Assembly: GCA_001775475.1 (NCBI GenBank)
Contig: MEWW01000017.1
Coordinates: forward strand, 1-43,214
Direction of reading: 5' to 3'
Length of the DNA stretch: 43,214 bases
Origin: Candidatus Adlerbacteria bacterium RIFCSPHIGHO2_12_FULL_53_18
GTDB lineage: Bacteria; Patescibacteriota; Minisyncoccia; Phycocordibacterales; SBAW01
Below the pieces are notes generated by a model, which did no database searches, was not told the origin of the DNA, and saw only the letters and a program-made list of their open reading frames with translations. Position numbers and translations under genes: made by a program. Numbering within the stretch: the first letter of the stretch is position 1; every line of letters begins with the position of its first letter. Of the stretch, positions 36,100 through 36,196 are shown piece by piece.

Positions 36100-36196
36100 G
36101 CTGAATTGGTCTTCGAAAAGTCCTCGGTTCTCCCGTCTCGCGCCGCTCTCTGCGGAGCGTCCTCGCGGGCCAGACTTTTCTCACACCAATTCCAGC
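36100..36196 (+). repeat. 97-nt structured repeat, copy 1 (atpE-atpF gap)
   Basis: GCTGAATTGGT..AAAAGTCCTCGGTTCTCCCGTCTCGCGCCGCTCTCTGCGGAGCGTCCTCGCGGGCCAGACTTTT..ACCAATTCCAGC; arms complementary. Confidence 0.85.

Follow-up and report, generated by a model that had tools for sequence, protein, structure and literature searches.

The DNA stretch analyzed here (the window) comprises positions 1 to 43,214 of contig MEWW01000017.1 from Candidatus Adlerbacteria bacterium RIFCSPHIGHO2_12_FULL_53_18, and its atp operon contains two copies of a 97-base hairpin, one in the atpE-atpF gap and one in the atpD-atpC gap. This hairpin belongs to a family of short palindromic repeats, here called family 1, that is dispersed in the small-genome Patescibacteria. 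The family is apparently undescribed so far; a literature search found no description of it in the candidate phyla radiation (CPR), with most subscription papers lying outside the reach of that search. We consider family 1 to be, more likely than not, a dispersed, non-coding and non-autonomous palindromic element, belonging to a set of at least six core families with a common layout, and the copies in the atp operon are best explained as tolerated passengers.

Two Family 1 Copies in the atp Operon

Copy 1 occupies positions 36100–36196, between the atpE stop codon (36081–36083) and the atpF start (36213), and copy 2 occupies 40773–40869, between the atpD stop codon (40764–40766) and the ATG of atpC (40878). 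An earlier note, made from the sequence alone, had reported two hairpins of 97 nt at these positions with a common centre and unlike outer arms, and direct reading bears this out; the centres have an aligned identity of 91%, and the outer arms differ between the copies while remaining self-complementary within each. Thus copy 1 has the arms GCTGAATTGGT (36100–36110) and ACCAATTCCAGC (36185–36196), and copy 2 has the dissimilar pair GCTACTTGATTCC and GGAACAAGTAGC. We use 'plus' for the strand reading GTCCTCGG..CCAGAC, the conserved core of copy 1, which is operon-sense in the window, and 'minus' for its complement; both copies are assigned to the minus strand, which we infer carries the selected hairpin. 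The conserved core and centre of copy 1 (36120–36175, minus strand) is made up of GTC-CTC-GG, a variable centre hairpin, and CC-A-GAC.

Both copies fold more stably than their dinucleotide shuffles (200 each), at −41.8 versus −25.1 kcal/mol for copy 1 (z −5.9) and −51.6 versus −31.3 kcal/mol for copy 2 (z −5.6). The hairpins extend past the 97 nt through a TTC/TCC mismatch followed by two further pairs, and so span 36095–36201 and 40768–40874. In copy 1 the left extension (36095–36099) consists of two closing bases and TTC, and its partner (36197–36201) of TCC and two bases; in copy 2 the corresponding segments are 40768–40772 and 40870–40874. The two extra outer pairs form in the minus-strand fold of copy 1, and the consensus pairing of the family also rises at these positions. 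The 540 kb genome of the window (G000) has no other full copy, and holds a third, degenerate one at G000:C6:15476–15561.

Family 1 Is Dispersed across Patescibacteria

When 60 relatives were searched at the nucleotide level, many matches fell within the genus Candidatus Adlerbacteria. Using a covariance model (R1) built from 27 copies, we counted ∼160 copies in 29 of the 35 genomes of the genus, with 0–13 per genome and six genomes without a match in this search. The same model finds family 1 in 13 of 197 genomes sampled across the order, several other families included, and in one genome of another family of the order three copies lie inside 3 kb (G190:C22:14933–17735; L161). An exact gapped pattern searched against the GTDB contig set (84,980 species genomes) yielded 79 stretches with the family 1 pattern, with arms in 75 of 80 copies, and all of the informatively named contigs among them belong to CPR/Patescibacteria lineages. 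The named hosts are Adlerbacteria, Kaiserbacteria, Nomurabacteria, Zambryskibacteria, Vogelbacteria, other Parcubacteria and one 'Peribacteria' contig. We do not accept the last of these as a host, as its copy is identical to the recG copy of G033 and the contig is probably misbinned. Carriage by viruses was also rejected, the single IMG/VR match being without arms and attributable to chance.

A Common Register with Copy-Specific Arms

One pairing register fits family 1 and runs to 26 nt on each side. From the outside inward it comprises outer pairs at 25–26 nt, a mismatch zone at 22–24 nt, a 13-bp arm, and a second mismatch zone at 7–8 nt, and then an AAAA/TTTT plus GTC/GAC stem, a CTC/A internal loop, GG/CC, a four-base bulge and the variable centre hairpin. 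The conserved AGTCCTCGG..CCAGACT is strong, and GA/GA and GRA mismatch motifs are enriched on the minus strand. A strict GA/GA internal loop was considered as a rule for the family and discarded, since it is enriched yet present in only 21 of 147 copies. TYC is found on both flanks (plus strand, in the 22–24 nt zone) in 50 of 147 copies compared to 5 of 147 control windows; it was looked at as a possible target-site duplication, and it is a fixed motif rather than a locus-specific one. The element ends are GC flanked by TYC, and the unit is ∼100 nt long.

The arms carry little sequence information (0.03 to 0.9 bit per position), and what is maintained in them is complementarity: across the 13 arm positions the Watson-Crick pairing is 0.772, versus 0.372±0.011 when partners are swapped between copies. 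Within-genome pairs of copies that have identical centres have arms that are 38–62% identical, against a baseline of 37% for unrelated copies. As judged from these comparisons, the arms are not copied along with the centre.

Insertions within Genes and Re-Use of the Same Loops

Of 126 distinct copies, 83 each fall within a single long open reading frame, 58 in sense and 25 in antisense orientation, and the other 43 are between open reading frames, where there is no strand preference. The host genes identified using Pfam encode DNA polymerase I (PolA), RecJ, ArgRS (argS), Dus, IleRS (ileS), LepA, the Pol III delta-prime subunit, and ParB, and those for RecG and TsaD were identified by sequence motifs. 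At one and the same site the elements are read in different frames and on different strands, and the peptide is therefore not the conserved part. The fraction of elements with all six frames open is 0.109, five times that of dinucleotide shuffles (0.022).

The loops of RecG, TsaD and Dus, compared in about 30 genomes each, are empty, or contain family 1 in the plus or the minus orientation, other palindromic families, or bare palindromes, depending on the species. The Dus insert lies directly after the conserved GxPW-F motif in a sequence alignment to T. maritima Dus (1vhn). None of 69 same-orientation pairs at orthologous sites has an arm identity of 0.7 or above, and we thus reject vertical inheritance as the cause of same-site copies; the exceptions with arms shared by descent are parB of G001 and G002, where drift has left one arm pair mismatched, and dus of G020 and G026.

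Several individual sites deserve mention. The G030 dus gene (L395) has two adjacent palindromic elements of different families in a single loop, with the frame kept over 106 residues between motifs. Bare, near-perfect palindromes (e.g. GAGTCCTACCATATATGGTAGGACTC) are present at L240, L279, L274, L252 and L399, loops that are occupied by elements in other species. In G008 recG (L230) there is an arm remnant resembling the G001 arm (AGAAAAGTCC..GGACTTTTCT) from which the core is deleted, suggesting a route by which bare palindromes arise. In G022 tsaD (L282) part of the right arm (GCAAAGGATTTTTTGC) recurs as a second direct copy just downstream of the family 1 element, as expected from a template-switch event.

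Strand Polarity of the Hairpin

The departures from Watson-Crick pairing in the arms are polarized, with 57 G.T and 151 A.C cells on the plus strand against a column expectation of 248:324 (p = 3e-6). An A.C on the plus strand is a G.T or G.U on the minus strand. Sense and antisense in-gene copies show this bias when taken separately, and the minus strand is the more stable one in 90% of copies, by a mean difference of 6 kcal/mol. Selection thus seems to act on the hairpin as a minus-polarity single strand, in whichever direction the host gene runs, and the hairpin is therefore unlikely to serve the host mRNA; for the atp operon, the polarized mismatches point to a selected structure on the strand antisense to the genes.

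Proposed Origin and Spread of the Element

We propose that the element exists, or is recognized, as a single-stranded minus hairpin, 5′-..AGTCTGG..CCGAGGACT..-3′, in which the core would be the recognition part and the arms would be needed for pairing only. It may spread by a putative recombinase, transposase or reverse-transcription route. Copying of one arm from the other, by hairpin-templated synthesis or by template switching during replication, would both make and correct the complementarity, and template switching could also invert the centre; surviving copies would be those in non-essential gaps, or in protein loops with the reading frame kept open. Template switching between the arms of inverted repeats homogenizes the arms and inverts the spacers (PMC8604942), and it creates and maintains hairpins (PMC8794818). 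Together with a single-strand hairpin step it would explain the matched yet diverging arms, the inverted cores at one site, and the bare palindromes.

A number of observations weigh against this explanation. A Y1 transposase (PF01797) is present in 26 of the 35 genomes of the genus, and was not detected in G013, G017, G026 and G002, which are incomplete assemblies with 4–9 copies each; dependence on a Y1 or REP-associated tyrosine transposase (RAYT) is not supported by these assemblies. The mismatch bias is not significant for the 41 intergenic copies taken alone (25:39), and in the inner (centre) hairpin G.U pairs are more frequent on the plus strand (43 versus 26). In a systematic comparison of arms with uninserted orthologs there is no excess match on either side. 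Moreover, centres may be homogenized by gene conversion, such that identical centres need not mean recent copying, and the dus copies of G020 and G026 have the same arms with different centres.

Two readings of the copy-specific arms remain, namely that they are made anew at each insertion, or that they drift and stay matched through copying from arm to arm while the centres are homogenized by gene conversion. The G020/G026 dus pair favors the latter. The former is favored by two copies in which one arm matches conserved gene sequence: the right arm of the G014 RecG copy, GACCTTTTTGC, is conserved gene sequence encoding D-L-F-A with the left arm as its reverse complement, and the right arm of the G017 Dus copy contains ACTCGGC (T-R-L), which is present also in the uninserted G001 and G011. 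These same two copies, together with the finding that arms do not travel with the centre, agree with a sharper form of transposition in which the 3′ end of the hairpin would fold back at insertion and copy the strand to which it is joined, making the arms an inverted copy of the target. We raise this form tentatively, since the ortholog comparison gave no excess on either side and the arms have a weak common consensus (GCAGAAA..). Its generalization, a class of mobile hairpins in Patescibacteria in which only the core travels as a single-stranded hairpin, the arms are written by fold-back copying of the target strand so that an inverted duplication of its own site would be present in every copy, and several unrelated cores share machinery, is slightly more speculative still.

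Transposition could also be dispensed with altogether, if replication template switching both generates and maintains palindromes in loops that permit them, with gene conversion spreading the shared centres between them. The homogenizing, inverting and hairpin-forming effects of template switching cited above fit this account, as do the coreless bare palindromes at the same loops and the shared G020/G026 dus arms with their different centres. However, a conserved core on unrelated arms in many families of the order must reach new loci somehow, and random switching leaves the fixed mismatch zones (7–8 and 22–24 nt) and the strand polarity unexplained; we regard this alternative as unlikely. Less likely again is a hairpin of the repetitive extragenic palindromic (REP) type, or one domesticated by the host, which would act as a functional site for binding or RNA processing and be retained by selection at any place of insertion. 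The strong conservation of AGTCCTCGG..CCAGACT and the enriched minus-strand mismatch motifs could be read this way, but in-gene copies lie on either strand and in several reading frames, any given locus lacks a copy in most genomes, and six genomes of the genus have no match.

The preferred reading, that of a dispersed palindromic element, also accounts for the atp copies as passengers. The atpE-atpF gap holds a family 1 copy in four of 30 relatives (G000, G008, G011 and G013) and none in the other 26, and the atpD-atpC gap in three of 30 (G000, G013, and inverted in G017); neither position nor orientation in the operon is thus conserved, and the remaining gaps are empty or hold a different palindromic family. 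For example, the atpD-atpC gap of G023, G018 and G005 (L180, L183 and L190) has a different core, AAAAGAGGGTTAGACTTGGGCTAGCGCCCCGGAGCGCACTCTTTT, where the window has copy 2. No Rfam family was found at the element, either at the gathering threshold or at E≤1, and a scan for intrinsic terminators (GC stem plus T run), made on the atpE-atpF copy alone, showed no terminator-like site. The earlier note had suggested either a role in mRNA processing or stability in setting subunit stoichiometry, or an element resembling REPs or miniature inverted-repeat transposable elements (MITEs). The second suggestion is close. The first, including a role in c-subunit stoichiometry, fails, as the genomic copies are numerous and show no preference for atp, which is the outcome that the note itself had named as speaking against it. 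Although G000 and G013 each have two copies in the operon, an atp RNA element that sets subunit stoichiometry is therefore highly improbable, with family 1 absent from most of the atp gaps, a majority of copies elsewhere, no orientation bias between genes, and a selected strand that is antisense to the operon. For reference, atpE (c subunit) is at 35856–36083, the atpF open reading frame at 36213–36653 and atpD at 39396–40766, all on the plus strand of the window.

Other Palindromic Core Families

Inverted repeats with arms of at least 12 bp and spacers of 8–110 nt number 180 in 1.54 Mb of fetched loci, versus none in 163 kb of shuffled sequence. At least five core families other than family 1 are found in the same loops with locus-specific arms. 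Recurring cores among these are CGCTCCGGGCCGCTAGGCCAAGTCTTA, GCAGCGTCCCCTTGATGACCTGCAGC, TCCAGCTTCAGGACATAACGGGAACGCTTCC and GGAGAGATGAACGG..CTCC, with their own arms at each site, and the layout is common to all the families, in that a conserved core at the hairpin tip is carried on arms that are complementary within a copy and unshared between copies. The window has one such element, of a family designated F6, at 2711–2770, in-frame inside tgt (open reading frame 2334–3623), with 17-bp perfect arms GGAGGAGAACCCTTTTC and a 26-nt core of the GGAGAGATGAACGG..CTCC type that is distinct from family 1. A tgt-like open reading frame in G026 has a family 1 element just before the same motif, ATSHGKLAI. 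A 14-bp palindrome with a 10-nt loop, ATACACCACTCTTA..TAAGAGTGGTGTAT, at 24474–24511 of the window is possibly another such element or a scar.

Significance and Comparison with Known Systems

In bacteria with genomes of 0.5–1 Mb, essential genes thus harbor many palindromes that appear to be selfish and that lengthen RecG, TsaD, Dus, aminoacyl-tRNA synthetases and DNA polymerase I by as many as about 35 new peptide residues. On these palindromes one can examine how perfect hairpin arms come about and remain complementary as their sequence changes, which bears on RNA stems and on hairpin-based transposition. They also urge caution, in that a covarying stem located between the genes of an operon may be mobile DNA and not a riboregulator.

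Among known systems, tandem interspaced guide RNA (TIGR) arrays occur in CPR with palindromes and are tandem arrays processed to 36-nt RNAs (PMC12045711), and family 1 is unlike them. The coding palindromes of Nematomorpha mitochondria (PMC6649704) resemble it in being perfect inverted repeats within translated genes. They have no common core, however, and both of their arms encode conserved protein, whereas family 1 occupies loops of low conservation. Integron attC sites have variable arms as well as conserved unpaired bases, and are recognized as single-strand hairpins through their structure. Family 1 shares the variable arms, and recognition of the same kind would fit it, but its copies stand alone within genes and do not form cassette arrays, and no R or L boxes were noticed at the ends, though no formal box scan was made. 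MITEs are likewise small, non-coding, palindromic and dispersed; those of one family share their terminal inverted repeats, whereas in family 1 the terminal arms are the unshared part, with near-baseline identity even where the centres are identical. REPs, with bacterial interspersed mosaic elements (BIMEs) and their RAYT (Y1) proteins, are similar in forming imperfect hairpins at many sites per genome, and strand-specific hairpin recognition is plausible for family 1 as well. REPs are 20–40 bp long, and have a conserved stem that bears at one end a tag of the GTAG or CGTC kind (PMC3733652); family 1 has no such tag, a unit of ∼100 nt and variable arms, and is present in genomes without a detected Y1 transposase.

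The closest known kind is that of the Rickettsia palindromic elements (RPEs). These and the Wolbachia palindromic elements are, like family 1, short palindromes of several families in reduced genomes with no encoded enzyme, which are located both in intergenic regions and, in-frame, within housekeeping genes unrelated to one another, where they are tolerated. Palindromes of ∼100–150 bp with both locations characterize RPEs, and family 1 conforms, with 83 of 126 copies in an open frame and 43 between frames. RPEs are described as encoding a conserved peptide in one frame (PMC10969869). Compared by description, family 1 differs from them in being inserted in several frames and on both strands and in having Patescibacteria as hosts, and it most closely resembles an RPE from which the conserved peptide and the conserved arms have been subtracted.
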